DNA from: Perkinsus chesapeaki
Taxonomy: Eukaryota > Perkinsozoa > Perkinsida > Perkinsidae
Reading direction: 5' to 3'
Assembly: GCA_013115145.1 (NCBI GenBank)
Contig: JAAPAO010000313.1
Location: 1 to 40,383 of the forward strand
DNA: 40,383 nucleotides
Shown here: positions 5,067-40,383 of the stretch, piece after piece
Layout: each line of letters opens with the position of its first letter
How positions within the stretch are numbered: the first letter of the stretch is position 1
Program-made: the position numbers and the translations under genes
Notes under the pieces: model-generated
The model's input: the letters and a program-made list of their open reading frames with translations, nothing else
Databases searched by the model: none
What the model was told of the DNA's origin: nothing

Positions 5067-5292
5067 ACCTTTGGTTGGTTCTGCCTGCCCAGAGCTTGAG
5101 CGCTTCTGCTATTTGAGTTATTTTCAAAGTGTCCTCTCCAGCTTCAGTAGACCTTAAGACCTTCCTTTCGGCTCCCATCAAGGCCGAGGCCCCGAGCGCG
5201 GCTGCGAGCACCTCTTCTCTCAAGGAGGTTGCCTTCGCAAGGAAACCCAGATGCGTGGTGTAAGCTCCGCCTGTCACGTTGTCGTCTTTCAT
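5067..5292 (-). CDS. Short Ala/Leu-rich ORF, possible 5' exon
   Basis: The ATG at 5292 opens a frame rich in Ala, Leu, Glu and Lys that looks helical and codon-biased like real exons. It either ends after 80 codons at 5050 or is spliced at a GTACGA donor just below 5069 (phase 2). No family is recognised. It diverges from the plus-strand gene starting at 5425, leaving about 130 bp for a shared promoter region. The 3' end is unresolved, so treat this as a candidate exon. Confidence 0.4.
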
Positions 5293-7026: not shown

Positions 7027-7098
7027 GGGCTGAGCCGAGAATCGAACCCGGGACCTCGCGCACCCGAAGCGCGAATCATACCACTAGACCACACAGCC
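7027..7098 (-). tRNA. tRNA-Pro (anticodon CGG)
   Basis: Read on the minus strand, it is a complete 72-nt cloverleaf. The acceptor GGCTGTG pairs with CTCAGCC (one T-T mismatch), with discriminator C. The A box is TGGTCTAGTGGT and the anticodon stem CGCGC/GCGCG has loop TTCGGGT. The T-arm is built around GGTTCGATTCT. The loop, with U33 and CGG at 34-36, closely resembles eukaryotic tRNA-Pro. It has no intron and no encoded CCA. Several introns in this window carry degenerate tRNA halves; this is the only intact tRNA gene. Confidence 0.95.
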
Positions 7099-7477: not shown

Positions 7478-10400
7478 ATGGCACATCGGCGTGTAAAGAA
7501 TATCGTCTTTGATGAGGACTTACACGGTGACTATGACGACTATTATGATGATGCTGATTATTGGGGGGAAGGTGGAGACTATGATGAGGACTGGTAGTAC
7601 TGGGAGGACAATAAAAAGGATGCCTACCACCTGACGGGCTTCGGCGTGTTTCGTTTGCAATTCGTTTGATGGTGCACTATGTAATAATTGTTGCACTACC
7701 CTGGAATAAGCTCGTGGTACATATAGAGCTGTGGAAGCAGCAGCAGGACGCGAATGCTTTTATATAATAGTGCTATTTTAGTATGCTACTTTAATAATAT
7801 CTATTCTCCTTGACTAGCAGCTTCAATCAGGTCCTATCAAGCTCAGCCCAAAGCAGCAGCAAAATCTAAAAATAAAGCGAAAGGTAGAATGGTCTGATAT
7901 TTCAGAAATGCCGTCGGTGCAATATAACTGAATCTGTTACGAAATGACTCAAAGTCTCGCTAGAAGTTATAGGATAGTATTTTCTCCTTCTTCCCATAAG
8001 ATTCACTGTGACGATTCGTTTGATAAATGATGCAATGATCGCCAAGTTCTCTCGTCGGAAAATCGGGTTCGCAAGTCAAGAGCGGGCTATCCTCAAAATC
8101 GGAATATATCCACTCGTTTGCAAGGAAAGAACTGCAATTTGTGAAAATCATCGTTAGTGTCGGTGGCAGTACTTAAGGAGGATACATGCATTCTCCATGA
8201 CTAGTCGATGGGGGAAGGGTAGATCTCGATGAAGGACAAGAAGCGGATATTTCAACGTTGTGTATAGTAATAGTAGCCGGGAGTCGTCTGACATCAGCAG
8301 AATAGGTTCGTAGAAAATCGAAAAATGGTTCAATAGAACCTCTTTTCAGCTGTGGAGTTTTATTGCGGAGGAGATACATTGGAAATTTACCGCAATTTGC
8401 AGTGAATTTTACCGGAAATTTTACCGGAAATTTTCTGGGGGGAATTTTGCCGAAAATTTTACCGGAAATTTTGCCGGAATTTTTGGGGGGAGAATTTGTT
8501 CGCGGGAGAAAATCAAATATGAAATGCACATCTCTCTCGCTATTATTCTATGACCGGTACTGTCTTTAATTACATTGTGTTCATCTGTCAGCCAAAGCGG
8601 AATCTAAACCAGCGCCAAAGGTGAAGAAGGCAACGTCATCTCAGAAGCAGGCAGCATCAGCAGGAGGAGGAGGAGGAGAAGGAGGAAGCCGAATGGGTAG
8701 TCATTCACTGGGGGGAGGGAGAGTTGGAGTATATGGTTATGCTCTCCTACACTTATACAGCAAAAATATGGATAGCGATTGATGCTCCTACCACCGTCAC
8801 ATTCGCTCGCTTATGTTGCTGGGGAAACGATACAGATCTCGAGAAAAATACGGTATGAGTTTAAACCTCCGAAGTAGGCTAGTATTTTCTATAATGGTCT
8901 GGGTATGCCATCGCTAAGCAGAAGTGGTGGAGGCAGCAGTCGGCATCGGTGTTAAGGGGTCAAAGGAAAAGCGGAATATTTTTGTCAAGTGTGGCAATGC
9001 ATTTTATTTTTCTTCTTTCACTTATAAAATATTTTTTTTGGATCTCATGAAGATTCCCTGCCTGATTTCATCAGTGCATGATGACATGCGGTACGCTCTA
9101 GGCTGTCTTAGCATCAGCAGGCAGAACTCGCCTCCTCGGAATGGGTTTATAAAGCAGTATTGGAGATTGTGCGTGTTAGCCTGCACGCCGAAGTTGGTCA
9201 GTGTGATGCCCGTTTTGTCATATTTGGGAATGCTCGATCTTGGTGACTGTCAGGGGGAGGGGAGGGTAGCAACACTTTCGATTGGTCACCGTCGGTACAT
9301 CCGGCGTTGCCCGGAAAGTAAAGTTGCAAAGCTCCTCTGCTGTCGCTGGTTACTCCCTGGCTCCAAAGAGATATATCGCCCTTTTCTTCTTTTCCGTGTC
9401 GTTGGTTGCCGACATTGTTATAGGAGAAATCATCTCCTATTAATTGATTGTTGATGCTTAGCTGGCTGAATGTTAGGGGGTTGGTGAAGAAGCATTCTTT
9501 AGGTAGCCAAAAGCATGCTGAAAAGAGTCACGAGGAAGTTGTAGAGGAGGTGAACGAGCGGGTTAAAGACGCTGGGCTGTTGCCTAAGGAAAGGGTGAGA
9601 AAGATGGGCAGCACATGGGAGACCGGGACGGAGGGTTTGAATGGGATGCGGTTAGATAGATTGCAAATATATCTATATGAACGCTAAGTAACTTTGGTAG
9701 GAGTTATACTCGCATTGGAAGGATCATGAGACGCGCTTCTTAGGCATGGCGTGGGTTCGAACCCCGGCGAGGGTATTTTAATTTTCCAGGTGAACCAGCT
9801 GGTTCGGCAGTCGTCACGATCGTTGTCTCGGGCGGAGGAGTTGGTTAAGCAAGATGTGGATGCAATGAAGTCAAAGCATGAGGAATTGTCGGAAAAGGTA
9901 TCTTAGGTTGAAGCGTGCAAGGTACAAAATGGGTTAAGTTTCAGGCCCCTCACGTGCCAAAGATGTGTTTGGTTGTTGTTGGTCACGTTGATTCCGGCAA
10001 GAGTACCCTGATGGGTCATCTTCTAGTTGAACTGGTAAAATGTCATCGCCGAGGATCGAACCCGTGACCGTCTTCCTCAGGGCCATGTATCCTCCAGAGA
10101 AATGCATCGTTTCACTCGAGATGCTGCCGCCTGTGGGAAGCAAAGCTTCGAATACGCCTGGGTAAGTTGAAGAGCTCTGATCGCCAATACCTAGACTGAT
10201 TAAATCATCCCTGCTGAGGTGCAGTGCCCGCTGGAGACAAGAAATTTGCTCTTAATACGGAGGAAATAATGCAATGCAAATTAGGTTGGAGAATAGGTTA
10301 CTGGGCCACAAGGAAGCATGACATGGCACTTCCGACAACTCTTGCGTGGGCCCCGATCGTATGGCGTTCGGAAGCTCTAGAGAGAGGCTCGCTGATGCTG

Positions 10401-13400
10401 TGAATTGGAATTCGGTTTTTGGATTTGCAAAATAATTTCGGATGTGTCCGAGTGGACGATTACGATACCGGGAAAAGATTTTTTCATAAAAATGTGTTCT
10501 AATCAAAGAGTCGTAGAAGATGATCGGATGCGCCCCTCTGAAGGAATGAAATTCATGATGCTTCTTCCTTTTGCCCTTGGAACCAACAGATATGATCTCC
10601 TTTACAAGTATATGTTGTATATATAAATTACTGTATTATATCTTGCTATATCCATACATCTTTGAGCGCTAACTACTAACGAGAAGGAGTCGGGACTTGA
10701 ACATTTGTGAGAAGAATAGTTTTTATAATAGTGATATAAACTGGCATGTGATAGCGCACAATATTATATTAGATATATTCCACCACAATTCGCATTCTAC
10801 GTCCGCATTAGGGACGTTTTCCGGCCCTGGGGAACGCATTTCTCTGAGGGCAGGGGGCTTCCGGGTTCTAGCAGAGATGGTAAATGTTTCACGGTCCGGG
10901 ATGAAGCATTGAACCATTGAAGGGAGGATAATATCTATCATGAACCCTTTGTTGAAGCAAGAAGCCGCGCGAGATCAACTACCGACTAAGTCGTCTCGAT
11001 CTGTCGCAATTGGGGAACACCCGGAACATGCCATTTTTGTGTTGTCGTAGTTGCGGTAATTGATAGGGTTAATGTTTAGGTTCTTGATGAGGGGTCAGAT
11101 GAGAGAGAGCGAGGCGTCACCATTGATGTTTGTGTGAAGCATTTTGCAACACCGAAGGGGACGACGGTATCTTAGCTTCAAGCTTGCATCTTAAACTGGA
11201 GTATCTTAGGTTACTTTGCTTGACGCGCCCGGCCATAAGGATTTCGTTCCTAATATGTTGCTTGGGGCGGTTCAAGCCGATTTTGCGATTGTATTGGCTG
11301 ATGTGAAGGACTTCGATAAAGGGTTCACTCGAGGAGGTAGGCGAGGGATAATCGAACGCTGTGGACCCGAGTTGCTCTTTGGAACTGATTTTGTTGAGCT
11401 TGGTAATGCACTTGAGCTTGGCGGCCAAGGAGATTCAAACCCGGTATTGAACTACTGTAGAACGATTGATTTTGAAGAGAAGGGCCTTGATTGGTATAAC
11501 TTCCTCAGAAACGTGTTGTTGTCGTTGTTGAGGGGAAGCATCGTTGCGTAGATCTCTGGGATAGGAGATCAACAGACCCAGGCTGGCACGTAGTTCGATA
11601 AAAGACGAAGAAGAAATAATTTTTGATGAAAAATACTATAACAATCAAATTGCATTATAAGATTGTTGATCATAATATACGGTTGCCTCGGCTAGTGAGC
11701 ATAATTATATAGAGGTGTACGATAACACTTCCTGGTGGATGCGAGTCCTATACGGGAAAAGATTCTCGAGGTTCATCGAAATGCACTCTTGGCTGGTGAG
11801 TATGTTTGGAGTCAGGTCAAACGAAGGAGCATATTCGACTTCTCCGAGCGTTGGGTATTAGCAAGATTATTGTTGCCATTAATAAGATGGATCTTGTGGG
11901 TAAGCGGGGTAATTAGTCTAGTGGTTAGTTCCTTTGGCTTACTAACCGTTTCACCCTGGTTCTATTCCCGCATGGTGTGTTTTTAGATTATTCCCAGGAG
12001 CGGTACGATAGGGTACATGACGAGCTTGAAACGTTTATTGAAGGCGAATGTGGATTCAAAAAGGGAAATGTTTTCTATGTAAGCATCTTCGCTAGCAAAG
12101 CGAGATTGATGAACTTGATTAATGGAGGAATCTTCGTAGACTTAATTAACTCGGTAAACTACTCGTGGAGTAGCTAATCGTAGTTGATTAATAAACTGAT
12201 TATCGCTCAGTATCCCACCGATCATTCGTCCTTCATATTTCAGCTGTTAGTTACCAACTGCTGGATTTGTTGGAGAGAATCTGGTAGAGAGGAAAGACCC
12301 GAGGCTGACGGCATGGTGGCATGGTAGGCAGAAATAAAAGTCTCCTAGTGCTTTTGGAAACAGCTCCAACAATTCAGCGATGTTAACTGCTCAAGACAGT
12401 TCAGAGGGCCCACCTCGATCAATGTGTCCATTCTTCAAAAACGCTCGCGGAGAGATATTCCCGAACTTAGAATTTCTTTAAATTGTCAATGGAAGAGATG
12501 TCGGTGGCTCTCCCTTATGCACGCCGCTCTGCTTTGCATTTGGCGAGTTAGGCTCTTCTGAATCTTCTCTTGTCGTGTGCTGGTCAGGTTGAAGAAAATC
12601 TGCTTAGGGTGACAATAGAGCGAATTTTCAGGCGTTAGTGACTTTAACTCATCAGGTGATACGTTGGTTACCGCTATTGATCGATTGGCGGAGTCTTCTA
12701 GTGCGGAGGGAGCGGCTGCCAAAGCATCGCTTTCTGCACCACTCAGGATAGCTGTAGCAGATGTGTACAAATCTAGCAGCGGAGCACAGGTGAGATCCGA
12801 GCTTCAAGCGTGCAAGATACGTGTGAGGTTGCTTAGATATCTGGTAGAGTCGAGCAAGGCATGTTCAAAAGTGGTCAGAAGGTTATTGTTCTACCTGGTC
12901 GAGGGGATGATTCGAGCGCATGCACCATCCGAAATGTGTAGGCCATGGAAGCGAGCAACTCGGGAGATTGGAAGTGCGAACTTTTACTTCCCGAACGATC
13001 GTCGATATATGAATCGACAAGACTTCCGGAGGCTTTGATATTTCCAATTCGATAAATTGGCTGATTACTATGTACAACTTGCCTCTATCAGGTATAGGAA
13101 TGGTGAGGCTATGCAAATGGGCCAGAACTCAGAAGGTTACCCTGGGGACTACATCGACTTGGCGACACTACAAGGTGAGAGGGGGGCAGTAGGGATTGGG
13201 GTACTCTCATTTTGATATACGATTAATGGTAGAACCATATGAAGGAATTTGATTATTTACTCATCGAATCTTTTATACTGTATATATTTACTGTTATACA
13301 GAGAAGCGAATATTCAGTCAGATGATGTACAATAGTGTTCGGTTATATAGAAGCCACACTGCAGCACTGTGCACAAGAATGCAGCACGCGTGCGTTAGAC

Positions 13401-15530: not shown

Positions 15531-17744
15531 TCAGCACGTACACACAACATCAGAACCCCAACAAAGTGATGGGGACTTCCAATACATACAGTACGACCCT
15601 GCAACCAACTTGGAACACTGGAGGTCAGCTTGGTGGCAATCAGGAGCAGTAGTGGACCTCTGTGTGGTAACCTCGCCACTCGTTGGAGTGGGCGATTGAG
15701 TGGTGGAAGTTGACAACCCTCCGCTACATTGACAAGGCACGTTGCTTCCCCAACAGACGGGTGGATACTGATCGATTTTACAATAGGACCCAGGATAACC
15801 TTCCGCGCATATTGCATCAGCCATGGAACAGTCCATTCCAGTGGTCGGTGTCGTCGAAGTCGTGGAAGTAGTAGTGACAGGATAGGAACTTGTCGTTGCT
15901 GCAGTGGTTGTAGTGGTGGTAGCAGTTATGGTAGTAAAAGGCAAGGTAGCTGTTGTTGTGGATGGAGTAGTTGTTGTTGCGAACGGAGTGGTTGTTGTTG
16001 TTGTTGTGGATGGAGTAGTTGTTATGGTTGTTGCGAAGGGTGTGGTTGTTGTTGTTGCCTTCCGGCCACAAATCTCATCGTCAATCTGAATAGTCATATT
16101 CTTAATAGAGGGGAAGGCGAACATATCAATGCTATTATACTTGCACTTCACCTGCTGCAGCCTAGCATAGGTCTCGCTGTTTGGGAAGTACTGGTCGATC
16201 CACTCAAAGTCGGTGCTGAGGTCAGAGTCGATGTAGTTCTGATAAGCTTGATGAAGCGATACAGGCAGCACCGTACTATAGGCTTTGTGGAGCCACTGAA
16301 TTCTCTCCTGTGGAGGAGCTTGGTCAGGATACCAGCTTGCTATCATTTGCAGATGCCACCCGTCGACTCTGTGATCGAAAGCAGTGCACTTGCGGCCAGA
16401 ATGAGCGTCACAATCCTTGGGCTCTTCTGCCATGGCGTGACCATAGAAATCAAACTGAAGCACGCAGTCGGTATTCCACTTGCAGATGGGATCGAGGCTG
16501 AGCTCTGCCATGGTTTCGAGAGTAGCGATGTCGATGTCTTTGTCGAAATAGAGGGACTTTGCCTTATAAGGACTAGCCAGACTGTGAGTGTTCCAATCCC
16601 AGCACTCATTCATCGACTTCTTAAGTTCACTCTCACTGCATTTTTGGACACCATCGGGAGGATAGAAATCCATCCAGGACGCCGCAGTGCAGTCTGCCCA
16701 GAACCACATGGCCTCACCGAAGCTTTGCTCCAGGATAGAGTACTTTTCAACACCAACAGAATCAGCTAATGCCTGCACTTTCCCCTGGCAGGATGAGCAG
16801 TCGCCAGACGCATCGCAAATGCACTGCGCGCTAAACTGAATTGCGCCACCACCAAGGAACTTGCCGATTCCGAACATCTCCGGGCCGGCCGCCGAAGAGT
16901 GCATGAAGGTCTGGAAGGCTTTGATGCGTTGTGCTTGCAGGGAAGGATTCACGTCGGAGCTCTTCCCAGATATCACGACCACATTAGTGACTGGGAAGGC
17001 CTTATATCGCAGTGTGACGATGACGCCGTAATTACCACCCATACCACCCCTCAAGGCGAAGAACAGATCAGAGTGCTCGTTGAAGCCTGTGGCGGTCACT
17101 AGCTCGAATTTGCCGGTGGATTCGTTATACACCACAACATCAGCGGAGACCAACCTATCAGCGGTAATGCCGTACTTGGCAGAAGAGAGACCATGTCCCC
17201 CACCAGAGAGCAGACCGGCGATACCAACTGTTGGACCGGAGCCGGCTGCTAGACCGAGTGGAGGGTCGTGGCGGGCCAACCGAGAATATGCTTCAAGCAA
17301 GCGTAGGCCGGCACCCATTGAAGCGATGTAGTCACCGTTGACTTCGGATACACTGAAACCAGTTAGCCTCTCCAAATCGATAACAATACCATTATTAACA
17401 GTGGACTGGCCGATATACGAGCTTCCCTGATTGCTGCGAATCGCCACTGGCGCAACCTCCTCGTGACAAATTTGAAGCGCGGCGATGATGTCGTCGGCAG
17501 AAGTGACATTGACCATGGCAGCTGGCGAGTAACCGTGAGCTTGATCGAAGCGTTCGTTGTAGGGCGGTGGAATATCGGTGGTTTGCACTTGGCCAGGGAG
17601 GGCTGAGATTAAACGGGAGACAGCTGACTGGACATCACCGGTGGCCACCGCGCAAAGGGAGAAAATGGCAAGTATATAGGAAAACCACACCATTACGGAC
17701 GTTAAGACATAGTGCGATGTTCGCGGTAACCAAGTCATTCCCAA
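15531..17744 (-). CDS. Secreted BBE-like FAD oxidoreductase with Thr-rich stalk and two Cys modules
   Basis: A single exon of 737 aa. An N-terminal hydrophobic stretch (MVWFSYILAIFSLCAVATG from Met18) is a signal peptide. Residues ~60-255 match the FAD_binding_4/PCMH fold (GYSPAAMVNV, PPLGLAAGSGPTVG, GLLSGGGHGLSS, LFFALRGGMGGNYGV). Residues ~490-565 match the BBE domain (YQNYIDSDL, LQQVKCKYNSIDMFAFPSI). The two usual covalent flavin anchors are absent: RSNQGSSY (103-110) lacks the histidine and GSGPTVG (168-174) has Gly where the cysteine should be. Then comes a Thr-rich, probably O-glycosylated stalk (~570-645) and two modules with identical spacing C-X6-C-X8-C-X8-C-X6-C-X-C, each with GSYC and CWGS. 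Substrate is unknown. Being intronless among intron-rich genes hints at retroposition or lateral transfer. Confidence 0.93.
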   Translation of the reverse strand: MGMTWLPRTSHYVLTSVMVWFSYILAIFSLCAVATGDVQSAVSRLISALPGQVQTTDIPPPYNERFDQAHGYSPAAMVNVTSADDIIAALQICHEEVAPVAIRSNQGSSYIGQSTVNNGIVIDLERLTGFSVSEVNGDYIASMGAGLRLLEAYSRLARHDPPLGLAAGSGPTVGIAGLLSGGGHGLSSAKYGITADRLVSADVVVYNESTGKFELVTATGFNEHSDLFFALRGGMGGNYGVIVTLRYKAFPVTNVVVISGKSSDVNPSLQAQRIKAFQTFMHSSAAGPEMFGIGKFLGGGAIQFSAQCICDASGDCSSCQGKVQALADSVGVEKYSILEQSFGEAMWFWADCTAASWMDFYPPDGVQKCSESELKKSMNECWDWNTHSLASPYKAKSLYFDKDIDIATLETMAELSLDPICKWNTDCVLQFDFYGHAMAEEPKDCDAHSGRKCTAFDHRVDGWHLQMIASWYPDQAPPQERIQWLHKAYSTVLPVSLHQAYQNYIDSDLSTDFEWIDQYFPNSETYARLQQVKCKYNSIDMFAFPSIKNMTIQIDDEICGRKATTTTTPFATTITTTPSTTTTTTTPFATTTTPSTTTATLPFTTITATTTTTTAATTSSYPVTTTSTTSTTPTTGMDCSMADAICAEGYPGSYCKIDQYPPVCWGSNVPCQCSGGLSTSTTQSPTPTSGEVTTQRSTTAPDCHQADLQCSKLVAGSYCMYWKSPSLCWGSDVVCTC

Positions 17745-18799
17745 GGGGACAGGCTTTGTGTGCTGTGGCGCTAGGAGATAGTTTCATCGTTATTAGTCGA
17801 GTTCAGTGCCCTGAAACATGCCAAATGAGCCTGTGAGTTAACTACCGGGCTGAACCCCAAACTTCAGCGGTTCCGGCTCCAGCCAATAATAAGGGATGCT
17901 CTCGCGGTGCTCACAAAGCTACCGAGGGCCTGCGAGGAGGCCATTTCATCCCAACTTGATCTGGTCAAGTTGACCACTAGTCAATGACTATTGGGATAAT
18001 ACCGCAGTGTGACGGCGGCTGACGGTGATAGTCAACAACTATTCCGGACACCCGCACTTTATGGGGCTGCTGTTCGGACTAGATCGGTAATACCGATTCG
18101 GAGGGGAGGGGGCTCCGACGGAGCCGCTCCGCTTGGAACGGCTTTTCGCTGGATAATGCGGTTGCCCAACTTAATCGACAACATTGACGGCGTAAACAGT
18201 TGTACACTGTACGATTAAGCTTCAAGCAACTTGAACCTTGATCGTACATTGATCACCCTCGAATCAAGTGTGAATGCCGGATACCAGCGGCTGAAAGTAG
18301 TACATCATTACAGTGCGTAACTCCGAAGGAAACGAAATAGGTGTAGGAGACATAGGGCAATATGCCCCTATGGGGGGTATGTTTTTAGTAACATTCTTTA
18401 GATGGAAATTCCTCGTGATGCTTCGGCTCACCAAGCGAATTCGGCGATTAGAATAGTTTGATAAACATACAATAAAATATCAAGAAATATCATCGCCTTG
18501 ACAATGCTCGAGTTGGCCGAGTTGGCTGGCTGTCGATGACTCGAGAATCAGGACGAAGTCTGTTTAGCAGGAAGATGTTGTTCCCTCGGTACCATCTATG
18601 GCCTATTTTGATAAAAGTATTTCCAAGGTGATCGAGTTGCCTTTCTTACAGGGAAGTCGGTCATATGTCTTCTTGGACATTTTATTAGATATTCCCAAAG
18701 GACATCGCGTAAAGTATTTCCTCTCGAGGTTTGTTCCTTATGATACAGTTTACTGTATAAAACAACACGCAACAGTTGGAAAATATTAAAAATTATAGT
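17745..18799. other. Intergenic, with one-base-centre palindromes
   Basis: Upstream of the flavoprotein and downstream of the small GTPase (both minus strand), so promoter and 3' UTR should be here. No gene is recognised. Perfect palindromes with a single central base lie at 17962-17976 (arm TGGTCAA), 18083-18097 (arm ATCGGTA), 18111-18125 (arm GGCTCCG) and, overlapping it, 18119-18131 (arm CGGAGC). They belong to the class described for 22.9-27.9 kb. Confidence 0.5.
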
Positions 18800-20735
18800 T
18801 CAACGCCAATGCTTTGATAATGATCGAATCGCTTTGCTCAACGAGGAGCCGTGCTTCTTATGTCGCTTCCGTTGACCAGACGAACGACTTCGCCGCTTGC
18901 TTATTTTGACGCCACCTGGAGTCTTTCTGTGAGCTGCTTCTGCTACAGCTAGGAAAACATCCCATACACCATCGCCGGTCAGCGCGGAGGTGGGATAGAA
19001 GCCCAAAAGGGGGTTCATCGACGACAGCGAAGGTGCTCCGGATGAGTCGAAGGAATGGAACAACTGAAAGGGAATTTGGACGCCCGAGGAAATCGCTGTC
19101 ACCGTGGCGCCGTTGTCTGAGATGGCCGAGCCGAGATCTGATTTGCTGGCAGCGAACGCTACAGGAATACCAGGCTCTATGTCGTGGACGAGATTGAGCA
19201 TTCTGAGAAGAGATGCCGGCACCGAGGATCGAACCTGCGACCTATCTTACTTGTGCACTTCTGTGTAGTTGTTGCTTTCCTCATCGTTACTGTTGTCGTA
19301 GACTATTACAGCGCCACTTGCACCGTGCAAAACGTGTGGCATCATACTGATCAAATCCTCTTTGAAGTTGATAGCCCACACCTGAGGGAACGGTATGCGA
19401 GACGGAGCGCCGAAAGCAGAATTGAGGAGGAATTCAATAATGAAAGAAGACGGCAACATAGAACTAGAAATCAAGGGACGAAGGCGTACCAAAATGAACC
19501 TAGAAATGGATAGAATTTGCGGAGTAAAAAAGGTTTTGAAAACCACTTTAAACTGTAGAGTCATACTGAAGTATATCAAACTGTAAAGTGACTCCATTAG
19601 AATCGGGCTCGGTAATAGTCGACTGGAGCCAACAGGCCTGGCAGTCGGTGGTGACTGCTAGCTGGTCACCGGAGCTCGCGTCGAATGAGACTTCCACACA
19701 TGGCGAGCCTAATTTCATGGCCCTATCATGGCACTAGGCTAAGCCATTGACAATTAGCCGTGGTTGTGCAGAACTGACTTTGAGCATGATGTGAACTCCA
19801 GGAGGAATTGCAACTGTCTTCCGCATGAACGAGACCCCAACTTCACACTCGTGATCGTCCGCGGTGAGGAAGCTGAAACACGAGCAATACTCTCTAGCAC
19901 TAAAATTCCGNNNNNNNNNNNNNNNNNNNNNNNNNNNNNNNNNNNNNNNNNNNNNNNNNNNNNNNNNNNNNNNNNNNNNNNNNNNNNNNNNNNNNNNNNN
20001 NNNNNNNAGGAAAATTTAGGGAAAAAACTGAGAAATTCGGAAAATTTAGGGAAAAAACTGAGAAATTCGGAAAATTTAGGGAAAAAACTGAGAAATTCGG
20101 AAAATTTAGGGGGAAAAACTGAGAAATTCCGCGCGGTTTTGCATCACTATAGGTGGGGACACTCAGATCTTCGACTAAACCCCAACAGTGTGACATTCGC
20201 GACCGAAGCTCCAGTGATCGCCCGAGAGTGTACTCTACGTTTGAATAACACATTGATAATTATAAAATTTAGATAGTCTTGAAAGAAGAGTATCTTCTTC
20301 CCTTGTTCCCAGAAGGAATGTGGTGGACGTCTCCTTCTGGTCTAGGACACAATCGGCACTCATGTGAGCCTGAATGACTCCTACGTCGTACTTGATCAAC
20401 TGCAAGGTGAAAGTGTAATTATTGGGCGCATAATAGTTAAACCTTAATTCCTCGGACTCTACCAGAGTCCATCGGCGAAGTGTGGACTATCCGATACGAC
20501 TAGGTTTTTCACTGGGAAAATATCTTACACTTCCCGCACTATAAAGATTCCGTGCTACTTCGAAGGTCACTTACCGATCAGTAACGAAACGATGTATTAG
20601 CGCGTTCTTGCCCGCGGAGGGTGGGCCTATGACGACAATCTTAAATTTGGGCAAATCCATTGGCCCGGGGGAATCTATCTCAGATGGGCAGGAAGAAACA
20701 GAGGAAGATGAGTCGAGGTCTCCTTTATGGGACAT
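18800..20735 (-). CDS. Atypical Ras-superfamily small GTPase
   Basis: The first exon (ATG at 20735 to 20575) gives a Ser-rich leader and then KFKIVVIGPPSAGKNALIH, a P-loop with Asn where Ser/Thr normally follows GK. One or more switch exons between 19382 and 20574 are not resolved; the N gap and a tandem array lie there. Exon 19251-19381 begins VWAINFKEDLISMMPHVL and continues GASGAVIVYDNS, the usual strand after switch II but without the DTAG signature. After a 48-nt intron (19203-19250) the last exon, 18800-19202, has FAASKSDL in place of NKxD and a TSALTGDGVWD segment matching SAK. The tail is strongly basic (SKRRSRSSGQRKRHKKHG), with no CaaX. Probably a divergent Rab/Ras-like protein with reduced nucleotide hydrolysis or binding; inference only. 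Confidence 0.75.
19203..19250 (-). other. 48-nt GTPase intron carrying a sense tRNA 3' half
   Basis: On the gene strand the intron starts GTAAGATAG, then CGCAGGTTCGATCCTCGG and TGCCGGCA, and ends TCTTCTCAG. The middle is a T-arm with canonical B box plus a 7-nt acceptor strand and an A. Exon phase (CAC AA joined to A ATG CTC) and the continuous GTPase fold fix the boundaries. It closely resembles the inserts at 10035-10080 and 39162-39210. Confidence 0.75.
19911..20130. repeat. 30-bp tandem array with an assembly gap
   Basis: Positions 19911-20007 are N. From 20008 the unit (containing GGAAAATTTAGGG and ACTGAGAAATTC) repeats about four times at a 30-nt period, nearly identical, then ends near 20130. 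The gap is most likely a longer stretch of the same array. It is inside an intron of the minus-strand small GTPase and its open frame is an artefact of the repeat. Confidence 0.85.
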
Positions 20736-28995: not shown

Positions 28996-29984
28996 ATGGG
29001 CCGCTCCACACACGTTTCTACTGAAGATCGCGAAAAGATCAAGCCCATCCTGATGGCCGCAAGAAGTTCACACAGAAAGATTTGGCCGCTGCCTTCCAGC
29101 TCAGCCAAAGTGCGGTCAGTAAGATCATCAAGGAAGGCCCGAAGGACACGCCGGAGAGGAGGGGAGCGAAGCCGAAGCTTTCCCCGGCCCATAAAAGGCG
29201 GATCGTGCGTTCCTTGGTACAGGAGCCGGGGCTTAGCTGTGCGGGACTGGTCAGGGAACTGGGTTTGGATGTAGGTAGGGAGACGGTAAGGCGGTTTCTA
29301 GACTCCGAAGCAGCAGAGTGGGCCTCCGTGAAAGGGGCACCGGTCTTGAAGGCCACTCATAAGGCTGCTAGAGTGGCGTGGGCGAATAAGTATCTTGTTG
29401 GCGGGACAGATTTCAAGACCTTCGTTTTCACTGATGAGAAGAAATTTAATCTGGATGGTCCAGATGGCGTGTATCACTACTGGAAGCTCCCGAAGTCCGC
29501 TGACATCGTCAGGTCGAAACGTAGCTTCGGTGGTGGGTCGGTAATGGTCTGGGGTGCCATATGTGGTAGCAAGAAGCTTTCCTTGGCGGTGGTCGACACC
29601 CGCCTCAACTCTGCCAAGTACCAAGAGCTTCTGGCCGCCCACCTTCTACCCGTTCTGGAGCCAGGGATGACCTTCCAACAAGACAACGCGTCCTGCCACG
29701 CTTCCCGAAGCACTAAAAAGTGGTTGGAGGACCACGATGTACCGACTTGTACCTGGCCCTCGCTTAGTCCAGATTTGAACCCCATCGAAAATGTGTGGGG
29801 AAAGCTCGCTATGATGGTCTATCGGCCTGGTGGCCCCTCATATTCATCGGTGGAGCAGCTACGTGCTGCTATATTCCAGGCTTGGGAAGAAATGGAAGAA
29901 GAATTCGTGGGTAAGTGCACAGATTCCATGCGGAAAAGACTGTGTGCGGTTCTCGAGAGGGGAGGGAAGGTAATTGACTATTAA
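28996..29984 (+). pseudogene. Tc1-type DD34E transposase, frameshifted near its N-terminus
   Basis: The ATG at 28996 starts an N-terminal segment (STHVSTEDREKIKP) whose frame then fails. The helix-turn-helix continues in another frame from about 29050 (KKFTQKDLAAAF, then LSQSAVSKIIKEG), giving a single-base-type shift between about 29040 and 29056. The downstream 300-codon frame (29082-29984) is intact. It has two HTH-like halves and the DDE_3 catalytic core: D118 in FTDEKKF, D201 in QQDNASCH and E236 in NPIENVWG, with 34 residues between D201 and E236. The C-terminus is complete. Either a recent inactivating indel, a sequencing error, or translational frameshifting. Confidence 0.9.
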
Positions 29985-32633: not shown

Positions 32634-35600
32634 GCCCGATGCGATCGAAGTTCCTCTGGCCAGTTCCGCGGCTCATCGGCAACATTGAAGCCCGACTCCG
32701 AGGGCGTATCTTTCATCCAAGAGGGGGCTCAGGTTAGTTACACACTATGAAGATTTTCAAGAGGTTCTCCTCAGGCCAGCAGCGAAAGCCGAATGATGGC
32801 GTGGCCGGTCGCCTCGGTAGGCCAAAAACTGCCCTGATAGATTTTTTGTGGATGCTGACTATTTCAGGTTGCCGAGATTGCCTTTGGCCAAGGCCACTAC
32901 TTCAACGTACAATGCATGGAGAGCCATTGTGGAGCTCAATTGAACGACTGCCTGGATGAGACCGATGGCAGCATCGAACCAACTTTCAACAAGTAGGATT
33001 CGCTCTGACCATGCTTGCTCAGCGCCGACGAGAAAATCGAAGGAGAGGTGAAATTCGTTATTTCAGGGACAAAAAGACTCTGCACCAGTCTCAATGTGGA
33101 ATAGTGCTGACTTGCCTTTGGCATGAGGAGCAGGCTGAGGAGAAGACGGAACAGACCGAGAACAAGCAGAACCCGGTAGGTTCTCACCAGGGATCGAACC
33201 CGGGTCGCCTGATGGTTAGTTTCAGGGCAAGCTCTCCGCCCTGGCGACCAAAGCGCTGGAGTTCGCCAGAAGCGCTAGAAGGATGCAAGGCGCCGACCAC
33301 TGCACGGACGGCATCAACCGCCTTGATGAGTCCCCTATGGAGGGAAGTTTGATGAAGTGTGCGGCGGACTTTGGCTGTCAGCGCATCAAGACGTAGGAAA
33401 CTGTCGAGGACTGTTCAGCTGTTTCATTGGCTTCTCTTTAGGGACGACCTGGCAGAGCAAGCAGCTAGTGGTGCCGTGCCGGGGGAGAAGAAAGTGCTGG
33501 AAGAAGTTGCTGAGGTGAGCTAGGCGTTGGGCGGCGGCACTTGGCAGAAAATACGCGGTGCTGCATGCGGAGTGGATGAGGGAATTTGATGTGCATCATC
33601 ATCGGTTTATCAGCCCCCTAGGGAGTAAATGAGGTGATTTACAAATGCTGCGTATTCATGCATATTTCTTTATTACTTGTCTAAGTTAGTCGTGTATGTA
33701 CGCTTTTAGTGGACACTTGACACGATCATTTTTGTGACACTTGAAATGAGTTTTACTCACCTTTGTTGTTTTATTATTATCTTCTGTATTAGGGCAAATC
33801 GATGATGGAAATAGAGTCGTCGGAGCCTCAACTACAACCAGCTTTCGTCAGCTTTGATGCCATTGATCCCGAGTGCTGGCAGAGCAATTGTGATCTCGAG
33901 CTTGGCAACTGCGACCAAGGTGAGCAATGTCTCGTTGCTTCCAGCGGTGCGTTTAATGAAGCCTTACGGAATGCCTGTGGACGTCGTTATATTGTAAACC
34001 TGTAGATGTGGATAGATTTTCAAAGATGTAGCTTACAATAGTAAGCTCATCTGTTTACTATGATCGGTGTAGTGTGGTCGGATCCAAGGTGGTCAGATGC
34101 TCAGGTGGCCACTAGGGGGCGCCGCGTAAACATTAAAGATATAAACATTTATCACTCATCGGGATAACCTGCTTTTTCATATAACTGCACATCTTTACAG
34201 TTTATATGAGATTGACGACTGTATTATCACTTGTGAAGTGAATATAGTGTCATACCTATTGGGGGAATAGTACTCGATACAAGTGAATTGGAGAAACCAA
34301 TGTGGGCTGAAGATTATTTACATTCATACCTTCAGTTGGTTTTGTACAGCTCAAACGGCTGACTAGTGCAACCGATATATCCTCATCGAGTTCGACTCTG
34401 CTGCCTTTTCCCTGTCAGATATCGAGTGTCATTCAATGGTCGAGTGTCTGGAGATTCGGCAGTCCCGAGGGGAGGACGAAAACGAGTGCACGAAACATCT
34501 GTATAAGCTGGACAAGTACAAAAGCGATGTGCTGACTTGTGGAAAAAAGTCGAAGTGTTTTAAGGTGAGCACGCATGGCTCTGGAGTAGAAAGTCATAGA
34601 GGAAATATCAAACACAAATGGAATGCACTTCTTGTACTTTAACAGTTATTATTAGCAAATACTGACTTTAACCTATTTCAAGTTGATCCATACCTTTCAC
34701 GCCTATCATACGTCTCAAATGGAGGAGTTATCGGTTGTTTTCAAGAAAAACTTTCCTACCGCCGTTCCTGGTGATATCTCACTCGCTTCTTCGGGAACAA
34801 TTTTCGATGCCTGAGGGATGCGTTGTCGTGTGACTAGATAAGTCGACGCCGGTAACGTGTCGTGTATGAAGCTCTCTATTTGCAGCACTTGTTAGCCCTG
34901 GACGCAGCCGGATGCATAATCGTTGCTTTAATCGGGGGTCTCCTTGTAGGCGAGCTCATCTCCGGTATCGTTCCTGGAGCTGTCGGAGACCGCAGCCAGT
35001 CCGAGTTCGTTTTTTCAATTGTCGGCCAAATCTTCGAGCGAGAGGAGCCTTGATGAGACGCGAAAGAAGACTGATGAGATGGTCGAGAAGGTGAGTTCCG
35101 AAGGTCTGTAGGAGGAGGAGGCCAATGCGGGTAGACAGTAGTATAATATATTATCACGGTATTACTAGTGCTATCAACTTTCTGAATATCTATAGTCACT
35201 TCACTGATGAAATAGTTTTCAAGTAAGTTATTGTATGTATAGCTGACATTAAGGAGCACTTAATGCATGTTGGCCTCGGTGATGCAAAGTCGCCATGCTC
35301 CGTTATCTTCCCTAAATCCTGCTAAATCTGTTTGTGATTCACTGGGACCGTGTTGAGGCGATGCGTGCACACTATTGATTGGAGTAATTAGTCGACGAAC
35401 GGTGGATCGGTTATTTTACCGAGCGCGAAAGTGGTATTATTTTTCCCAGTAAGGAGTTGTCGTTTTTGTCAGCTGAACGCCAAGATGGCCGAACTCAACA
35501 AGGAATTCGCCGACACTGAAACGGAAGAGAAAAACGACTTTAATAAGCTGGAGAAAGCCAAGGAGGATTCTGACAAGTAGCATAATTTCGTGGCGCGTGA

Positions 35601-38747: not shown

Positions 38748-40383
38748 ATGCACTTCGTTCTGATCACTTCATCCCTCACAGCCGTCTTCACCGCTGGAGC
38801 CAGACATCGCAGTAAAGCTGAGATTGACTGGGATAAGAGCCAGAAGGACACTGATGAGCTGGTTGCAAAGGTGAGTGTTGTCTTAATTAGAGGAATAAAT
38901 ACTGTTTTGGACCGTGGGGGATGTGGTCCGTAGATTCTGAAGGGGATCTGCAGAATCGTAGTTGATTAGTCTAGTCAGCAAACAAACCTTCTAGAGTTGC
39001 TCGATAGAGAGAAGTCGATGGTGCATATTTGGTGGCGCAGTGACTTTGTCTTTGTAGGTCAACGCGGAAATGAAGGTACTTGGGAACGACCTGGACAGGA
39101 CTGCCAAGCAAGACAGGAAGGATTTGGCCCTTTTGGAACAGAGCAGGCGTTCTGAGGATATGTAACAAACGCAGGTTCGATCCCCGGCGCCGATTTTTTT
39201 TTCATTTTAGGACCCTCGAAGAGACCGAGGAAAGTCTGAGGAGGCTGGCAAAGCAGGAGAGCAAAGACGACGCCAGTGAGCCGAAGATTATCCGTTCCTT
39301 CAGCTGTCATTGCGGCGTTCTTGTCAGTTCCGTTTTCGAGCTTTTTTCAATCGCATAACAATAACGATACTGCCATTCCCGTCAGTGGCCCGCCAGCCTC
39401 CTCCACGACAGGAGGCTCACTTCTCGAGTCTGGCATTAATAAGGCGAAGGAATGGGCATCATCTATGGTGGACAGCGTGAAGGCGGCAGGTCGGTCGAGC
39501 TGCTGCTGCTGCTCATGAACAGTTGACTCGGTTGAGTTGCGATTCCCTAGTTTCACCGCTACGTCTATTGCGCCCCTCGGAAATATAGCGTAGCTGAGAG
39601 TAGGGTGTAGGAGAGTGGTCCACCACATAGTGGTAGACTGGCAATAGCGTGTTGCTGTGGGCCCTCGTTGTTGAGGTGATCCGGACAAGTGCGATGTTGT
39701 CGAAAATGGAGAAATATGTGTATAGTTCTGTGTAACCTTTTTCACTTCGAGAATCTTCGTGAGGATAATTTTATCGTTCTCAGGTGCCAGTTTTTTACAA
39801 ATACACAATGACGACAGCATCGAAGCCAACAGCGAAAAGGCGCAGCAGAGCATCAACGTCGCTCAGGAAGCGGTAGAATTACCAAAGCCCGTCGGCCTTG
39901 GTTATGCCGGTTTTCAGCTTAGCAAGTTGAACGTGGATTTGGCAAACCAACAGAGAGTTCTAGAGTCTGAGCAGAAGGAATTCGCGAAGAGCTCCGAAAC
40001 CAGGCCGACGCTCAGTTTCGAGGGTCACGAGGCGGCAGGCGTCGCTCCGCTGGATTTCGGCGACTCTGTCGGAGCGTCGTTTTTACAGACTGGCGAGGCC
40101 AAGGGGCCGATCACTCCCGATATGCTGCAGGAGTGGTATGCTAAGTAAGCAGCATAATAATTTCGTGGCGCAGTGACAATACATCGAGTAGGTTTGAAGA
40201 TTCGTTGAGCAAAGTCAGAGCTGACGCTGGTCTTCCGGATATTCCGAGGAGTTCATTTCTCCAGAAGGGGATCAACTTCGCTAGCATGGCTGTAGAATGA
40301 CCGGCGGCGGCGGGGATTCGGAGAGGCAATTGTTGGTTAGGCGAACGAGAAGGTGAAGAAGGACCAGCGAGATGTGGAGCATT
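38748..40383 (+). CDS. Secreted coiled-coil paralog with SF[LF]Q motifs (continues past window)
   Basis: Exons with consistent phases: 38748-38870, 39058-39161, 39211-39275, 39328-39489, 39784-40144, 40192-40291 and 40341 to the window end. The ATG starts a signal peptide (MHFVLITSSLTAVFTAGA). The mature part is charged and helical, with SSFFQ, GSLLE, ASFLQ (twice), and SSFLQ. Exons of 104 nt and 162 nt match in length and phase those at 35473 and 35729 of the upstream gene, and motifs align (KDTDELVAK with KKTDEMVEK; EWYAK-FEDSL with GWVNR-FRERL). So the two are tandem duplicates, this one lacking the Cys-rich N-terminal part. An in-frame TGA at about 40298 is removed if the GTAGAA donor at 40292 is used; the following exon is clearly coding (EKVKKDQRDVEH). 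Confidence 0.82.
39162..39210 (+). other. 49-nt intron with sense tRNA 3' half and T8 run
   Basis: The intron reads GTAACAAA, then CGCAGGTTCGATCCCCGG, CGCCGA, eight Ts, CATTTTAG. The T-arm has a canonical B box and is followed by an acceptor-like strand and a Pol III-type terminator run. It interrupts codon AT|G (SEDM). It sits where the upstream paralog has the GTGGCGC-type intron 35577-35619. Confidence 0.8.
40145..40191 (+). other. 47-nt intron with ATTTCGTGGCGCAGTGAC motif
   Basis: This phase-2 intron contains TAATTTCGTGGCGCAGTGAC from 40158. The GTGGCGCAGTGAC part is also in the intron 38871-39057 (39031-39044) of the same gene. Confidence 0.7.

Follow-up and report, generated by a model that had tools for sequence, protein, structure and literature searches.

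How did short introns in unrelated genes of Perkinsus chesapeaki come to contain what reads as the 3′ half of a tRNA? The question is raised by the window analyzed here, a stretch of 40,383 nucleotides that makes up the whole of contig C239 of this genome (35,393,606 bases in 884 contigs). The host is a perkinsozoan, and P. chesapeaki is known as a clam parasite. The source of new introns is a long-standing question, and introners have, to our knowledge, so far mostly been traced to DNA transposons. A tRNA 3′-half introner family, if true, would provide a system in which intron gain is datable and the source RNA can be named; its setting would be a compact genome in which no fewer than two other families of repeated introns occur. 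We put the probability that the elements described here are introners, one family descended from tRNA 3′ halves, at roughly 0.6.

Element-bearing introns of the window

The tRNA-type introns of the window, their cores and its one tRNA gene are as follows:

7027–7098, minus strand: authentic tRNA-Pro(CGG) gene (ARAGORN; Rfam 49.5 bits)
9595–9789, plus strand: longer intron, in the limits drawn by the earlier note on this DNA, with a B-box element at 9754–9769 near its 3′ end
10035–10080, plus strand: HBS1 intron, 46 nt, GT–AG, antisense element; HBS1L solved-structure alignment ungapped over the junction
10047–10062, minus strand: B box and T-arm/acceptor core GGTTCGATCCTCGGCG of the HBS1 intron (genome motif search)
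19203–19250, minus strand: 48-nt GT–AG intron, sense element, in a minus-strand gene weakly resembling Ras/Roc GTPases
19220–19235, minus strand: core GGTTCGATCCTCGGTG of the 48-nt intron (genome motif search)
33176–33225, plus strand: 50-nt GT–AG intron, antisense element; spliced frame open
33185–33200, minus strand: core GGTTCGATCCCTGGTG of the 50-nt intron, one mismatch to GGTTCGATCCYCGGYG
39162–39210, plus strand: 49-nt GT–AG intron, sense element; frame open when spliced, stops when unspliced
39174–39189, plus strand: core GGTTCGATCCCCGGCG of the 49-nt intron (genome motif search)

The earlier note had described four short introns built from tRNA 3′ halves, and all four were recovered where it had placed them, at 46, 48, 50 and 49 nt, each with GT–AG ends and, as it had proposed, two of them in the sense and two in the antisense orientation relative to the gene. 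The motif that it saw in three of them, GGTTCGATCCYCGGYG, is exact in three, and the fourth (33185–33200, minus strand) departs from it by one mismatch. Its view that codon phase fixes the boundaries holds for three of the four, in which the spliced frame is open; left unspliced, two of these contain stops and the third (33176) is only frame-shifted. HBS1 has no open frame with fixed flanks because its next exon is short, and here the boundary drawn from family alignment was confirmed by the ungapped solved-structure alignment over the 10035–10080 junction. The gene at 19203–19250 gives Pfam Roc/Ras matches only under cut-off. The fifth, longer intron had been called a tRNA-Lys-like copy, which is borne out only in part: its B box is present at 9754–9769, but ARAGORN and Rfam both report no tRNA in it, and 9640–9790 as a DNA query matched only itself. 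The tRNA-Pro(CGG) gene, which offers a comparison for the 3′ half from within this genome, is the only tRNA called in the window by ARAGORN and Rfam, none being called within the introns.

Two further open frames were observed in the window. A single frame of 750 codons with a Thr-rich tail (15534–17783, minus strand) encodes a FAD-binding/berberine-bridge-like oxidase, with its nearest relative in P. olseni (77%) and many relatives in Perkinsus, and a 319-codon frame at 29025–29984 displays the Tc1/mariner-type domains DDE_3 and HTH_Tnp_Tc3_2.

Copy number, anatomy and tRNA register

The GGTTCGATCCYCGGYG 16-mer occurs exactly at 57 places in the genome, at 276 places with up to one mismatch (1 for the reversed pattern), at 820 with up to two (45 reversed) and at 2176 with up to three (637 reversed), or about 1,500 net of control; GGTTCGATCC is found at 841 places compared with 53 in the reversed control. 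Chance occurrence of the motif is ruled out by these reversed-pattern controls. The GGTTCGATCCYCGGYG counts include true tRNA genes, at least 62 tRNA matches having been obtained in a genome tRNA search in which 63 of 3361 first-look candidates were scored. With an HMM of the core, 240,511 fetched bases yielded 88 matches of at least 6 bits and their reversal yielded none; 40 of the loci scanned had been picked for an exact match, so no unbiased density can be derived. The tRNA-half observation is real and genome-wide. The poly(A) polymerase region on contig C48 (20500–25300; L068) contains six exact GGTTCGATCC in 4.8 kb, 13 GGTTCGATCC are listed on this contig between 19 and 36.4 kb, and L068 itself yields no tRNA gene with ARAGORN.

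Matches below 6 bits were left out throughout, and one of 117 was dropped before alignment, leaving 116 copies; taking out the two authentic tRNA genes left 114 for the profiles, and 107 remained where 140–150 flanking bases were required. With the first G of GGTTC as position 0, the 116 aligned copies hold information from about −10 to about +25, a common block of 36 bases, and beyond it hardly any conservation is seen as far as −45 and +59. This block comprises a variable loop, the B box, an acceptor 3′ strand, a discriminator A and a T-run resembling a Pol III terminator, and its core is nearly palindromic. In tRNA numbering we take it to begin near position 42, with the variable loop AGGTC followed by the T-arm, the acceptor 3′ strand (YGRNGGY), A73 and the T-run. 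The 3′ end is constant at the Pol III-type T-run and the 5′ ends are ragged, with certain pairs of copies alike over 46–49 bases and extending to the anticodon loop.

Such a constant 3′ end, ragged 5′ ends and subfamilies that reach the anticodon loop are also what ordinary tRNA-derived SINEs, 5′-truncated by LINE machinery, would leave behind. These SINEs are tRNA-derived elements of very high copy number with a Pol III B box, and the present elements share the descent, the box and the many copies; they differ in that the A box and the 5′ half are nearly absent, and in having neither a body nor duplications. Hardly any 5′ tRNA halves were seen among the copies: an A box lies upstream in only 6 of 116, including two authentic tRNA genes, and shifted windows give one or two. 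No signal of target-site duplications was found around the copies, nor inverted repeats above shuffles, in tests that rest in part on the lenient intron prediction discussed below, and the two longer copies used as DNA queries matched only themselves, by which a SINE with a long body was rejected. We consider SINE truncation an improbable origin.

Origin from tRNA was assessed with a position matrix built from the 114 copies, with the ten B-box columns left out, and scored on 26 tRNA genes from this genome. For the top-scoring gene of each kind the values were 20.7 bits for Ile, 19.3 for Arg, 18.8 for Lys, 16.5 for Phe, 15.9 for Leu, 14.2 for Thr and 11.5 for Pro, the median of the copies themselves being 17.5. 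Fifteen of the 26 genes scored at least 11 bits without the B box and 11 fell below, among them Thr(TGT) at 1.0–4.4, Cys at 3.1 and 5.2 and Gln at 1.4. For scale, the reversed large loci, with a slightly different background, reached at least 14 bits three times and at least 11 bits 18 times. The variable loop, T-loop invariants, acceptor strand, A73 and T-run are all found in the register of a tRNA 3′ half, and A73 followed directly by T's is the register of several tRNA genes in this genome. As a reading of sequence register, a tRNA 3′-half origin of the element is supported, since 15 of 26 tRNA genes still reach at least 11 bits without the B box. A single source tRNA was sought and discarded, with no clear winner among the 26 genes and about ten amino-acid kinds outside the sample. 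A full tRNA gene or pseudogene was likewise rejected, ARAGORN and Rfam recognizing no cloverleaf in the introns of the window.

Resemblance to tRNA could instead be accidental, the elements forming a family of palindromic introners that read GGTTCGATCC by coincidence. The nearly palindromic core agrees with this, as do the core of another repeated family (family C, below), which is likewise conserved without recognized tRNA likeness, and the result with the Rfam tRNA model, which finds no half-element in 15 small loci even at E 10, its one weak, sub-threshold match there being full-length (L044, E 5). The fit of variable loop, acceptor strand, A73 and T-run to many same-genome tRNA genes with the B box left out tells against accident, and the positions at which the 10-mer varies (52, 59 and 60) are those that vary among tRNAs. 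Coincidence thus described appears very improbable.

Within the block, the B box is kept and its surroundings are not. Its invariants are intact in 69 of the 70 non-bait copies, whose flanks have a mean identity of 0.59 to the consensus. Among these 70 copies the T-stem pairs are formed in 37 (49–65), 43 (50–64), 32 (51–63), 61 (52–62) and 70 (53–61), and neither pairing nor covariation exceeds that of shuffles. A folded tRNA T-stem was accordingly ruled out, there being no covariation; the T-arms reported in the earlier note survive as B boxes and not as folded arms, since the outer T-stem pairs pair no more than in shuffles. None of 11 single mismatches in the fetched loci falls on the seven invariant positions of the 16-mer, nor do any in the 43 single-mismatch genome places listed of 219 (by eye), and at two-mismatch sites of the fetched loci 4 of 54 mismatches do. 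Copies had been found through B-box-bearing seeds, a bias that is cured only in part by a flank-only scan with the 16-mer unscored and exact 16-mers left out. That scan gave 56 places with flanks of at least 11 bits, 29 of which carry all seven B-box invariants, one a single change and none two changes; the remaining 26 resemble the 25 places obtained in reversed sequence.

The B box may have been needed by the source sequences or retained after insertion; either reading fits. Its retention raises the question of whether these introns carry sites for Pol III factors. Because the invariants are intact and the flanks and T-stem decayed, splicing may hide, and the B box preserve, many intragenic Pol III-type sites. 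A fuller version, in which tRNA 3′ halves would be a continuing source of introns, the B box under selection and the introns putative TFIIIC-bound Pol III elements, is a doubtful proposal at this point. Extra TFIIIC (ETC) sites are B boxes outside tRNA genes, and the elements resemble them in this respect, with the difference that these candidate sites lie within short introns.

Splicing and the proposed route of intron gain

Splice signals concentrate at the edges of the element. GTRAG peaks within 30 nt 5′ of sense copies (28 in three 10-nt bins compared with about 2 per bin elsewhere), with 10 more at +10 that represent GTGAG within the element, and at 10–40 nt for antisense copies (19 in three bins). 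T-rich YAG peaks at +20 to +40 in the sense orientation (36 in two bins) and is weak in antisense. A joint donor–acceptor signature is displayed by 48 of 107 copies (32 sense, 18 antisense, 2 both) compared with 12.7% among 3000 random places, a set that includes intronic ones. In 12 of 34 predicted introns the antisense donor lies 18 or 19 nt before the core, near the reversed T-run, a spacing that rests on a lenient intron prediction whose score is also high in random places; this open-frame score was dropped as evidence because 47% of random places reach at least 12. A codon-based intron score of at least 8 was obtained for 36 of 116 copies and for 10.0% of random places, a modest separation. 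The 36 predicted introns with coding support measure 42–86 nt with a median of about 52, a spread that is partly imposed, since only 36–90 nt were allowed and lengths above 65 penalized.

Protein alignments verify a number of the junctions. Fifteen of 60 selected spliced peptides, chosen in part for their conserved look, were searched against Pfam, and in six a domain above cut-off spans the junction (DEAD, two kinase pieces, EFG_IV, PAP and an ion channel), the other nine giving no, weaker or barely crossing matches. Alignments to solved structures are clean at the junction in four of five cases, namely HBS1, PRP5/DDX46, poly(A) polymerase and an AGC kinase; EF-G has an 18-residue insert beside the junction. 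The gamma-tubulin junction is not among the clean cases. The protein-verified introns measure 42, 46, 50 and 53 nt around the 36-nt block. As is characteristic of introners, many alike introns occur in unrelated genes (four verified), and their borders coincide with the element, judging from the verified lengths and the splice signals at its edges. Intron status of the element-bearing segments is supported by the protein alignments over four junctions.

As an alternative to intron creation, tRNA fragments may have dispersed and merely survived in pre-existing introns. In favor of this, the joint short-intron signature is missing from 59 of 107 copies, and some sit in AT-rich DNA that may be intergenic (by eye). 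Part of the copies may indeed not be intronic, as the joint signature occurs in fewer than half. The lengths speak against such residence: the verified introns of 42, 46, 50 and 53 nt leave too little beyond a 36-nt element, only 6–17 nt, for an older host intron to be plausible, and the coding-supported introns (36 of 116 copies, subject to the length limits above) have a median near 52 nt. We regard survival in older introns as unlikely.

Creation of introns by insertion of the tRNA-derived element is the preferred reading. Copy number, block boundaries, tRNA register, the two orientations, splice signals and protein-verified junctions are observed, and the step from these to intron creation would follow from intron size. 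Of the earlier note's claim that tRNA-derived sequences create introns, the 3′-half origin is supported, and creation is a proposal drawn from the 42–53 nt size. Very short dispersed elements, spanning tRNA position 42 or so to the Pol III terminator, would insert into coding sequence in either orientation and be removed as short spliceosomal introns. In the sense orientation, a GTAAG-type donor lies directly 5′ of the variable-loop AGGTC, and the terminator T-run would aid as the pyrimidine tract preceding AG. In antisense, the reversed T-run may read GTAAAAATG and act as the donor, and in some copies the reversed AAAGGTC (GACCTTT) precedes AG. Spread is presumed to proceed via short copies of Pol III type, as RNA or as DNA. 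Intron RNA that reverse-splices is a disfavored route because copies occur in both orientations.

Known systems and other repeated short-intron families

Kinds of introner are known from Micromonas, Aureococcus and fungi, commonly, not universally, with target-site duplications or terminal inverted repeats. The elements resemble them in forming introns of unrelated genes from numerous near-copies of a short element, and differ in their tRNA 3′-half content, in a conserved stretch of only some 36 bases and in that inverted repeats and duplications were not detected. The main text of an introner survey (Gozashti et al. 2022, PMC9860276) contains no mention of Perkinsus, tRNA or SINE. Amoebophrya introners share an alveolate host and short invasive introns, and in the portions of that report consulted they carry inverted and direct repeats among non-canonical introns (PMC7789003), whereas those of P. 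chesapeaki have GT–AG ends and neither repeat type; the literature match for introners in Perkinsus concerns Amoebophrya instead (PMC7789003). Dada DNA transposons of P. marinus are likewise Perkinsus elements linked to tRNA genes, into which they insert, three families at TAGCTC in the A box; in the parts of that article seen, moved tRNA 3′ halves are not described for them (PMC3706591). Among literature listings and open main texts, no description of a tRNA-derived introner was found, and the matches for intron gain combined with B box and polymerase III concern tRNA genes.

At least two further repeated short-intron families, B and C, exist besides the tRNA family; these and a further repeat, D, came to light in k-mer counts over 285,722 bases. 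Family B (GTATCTTAGSTTGAAGC) occurs with up to two mismatches at 771 genome places compared with 12 in the control and takes the form GTATCTTAG[GC]TTGAAGC, often with the inverted repeat GTATCTT...AAGATAC. Copies are found in L012, L015, L021 and others, and twice in the window:

9898–9944, plus strand: probable family B intron just 5′ of the conserved HBS1 exons, borders by eye
11167–11209, plus strand: family B HBS1 intron, 43 nt; aligned to a solved structure with a gap of one residue close to the junction

The HBS1 region consequently holds one tRNA-type and two B-type introns, one of the latter bordered by eye only. Family C (GCGGAGCGAAGCGATTCATG) occurs at 262 genome places and none in the control, with copies in L019 (4875–4837), L014 (8030) and L068 (496). 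One copy is a 39-nt intron in an AGC kinase gene, and its removal raises the best solved-structure score from 60.5 to 70.2 bits. Short repeats may be a general means of intron gain in this genome, with the tRNA family as one branch; since families B and C behave alike without recognized tRNA likeness, the tRNA part may not drive movement.

Used as a DNA query, a 9.9-kb locus gave 19 matches of at most about 125 bases and no duplicated or empty locus, a weak test in that the self-match was also absent from the list. The matches comprise G/A-rich simple repeats, a tRNA-type core (C574, 35 bases, 94%) and short pieces including family C and apparently family B. A G/A-rich simple repeat of GGGAAAATT-like units is located at 5076–5213 of L014, with matches on several other contigs. 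Repeat D (TTTCGTGGCGCA) occurs with up to one mismatch at 20 places in the fetched loci; in the window, ATTTCGTGGCGC or a sequence one mismatch from it lies at 35586, 37383 (minus strand), 39028 and 40161, and some copies of this repeat adjoin splice-like signals (by eye).
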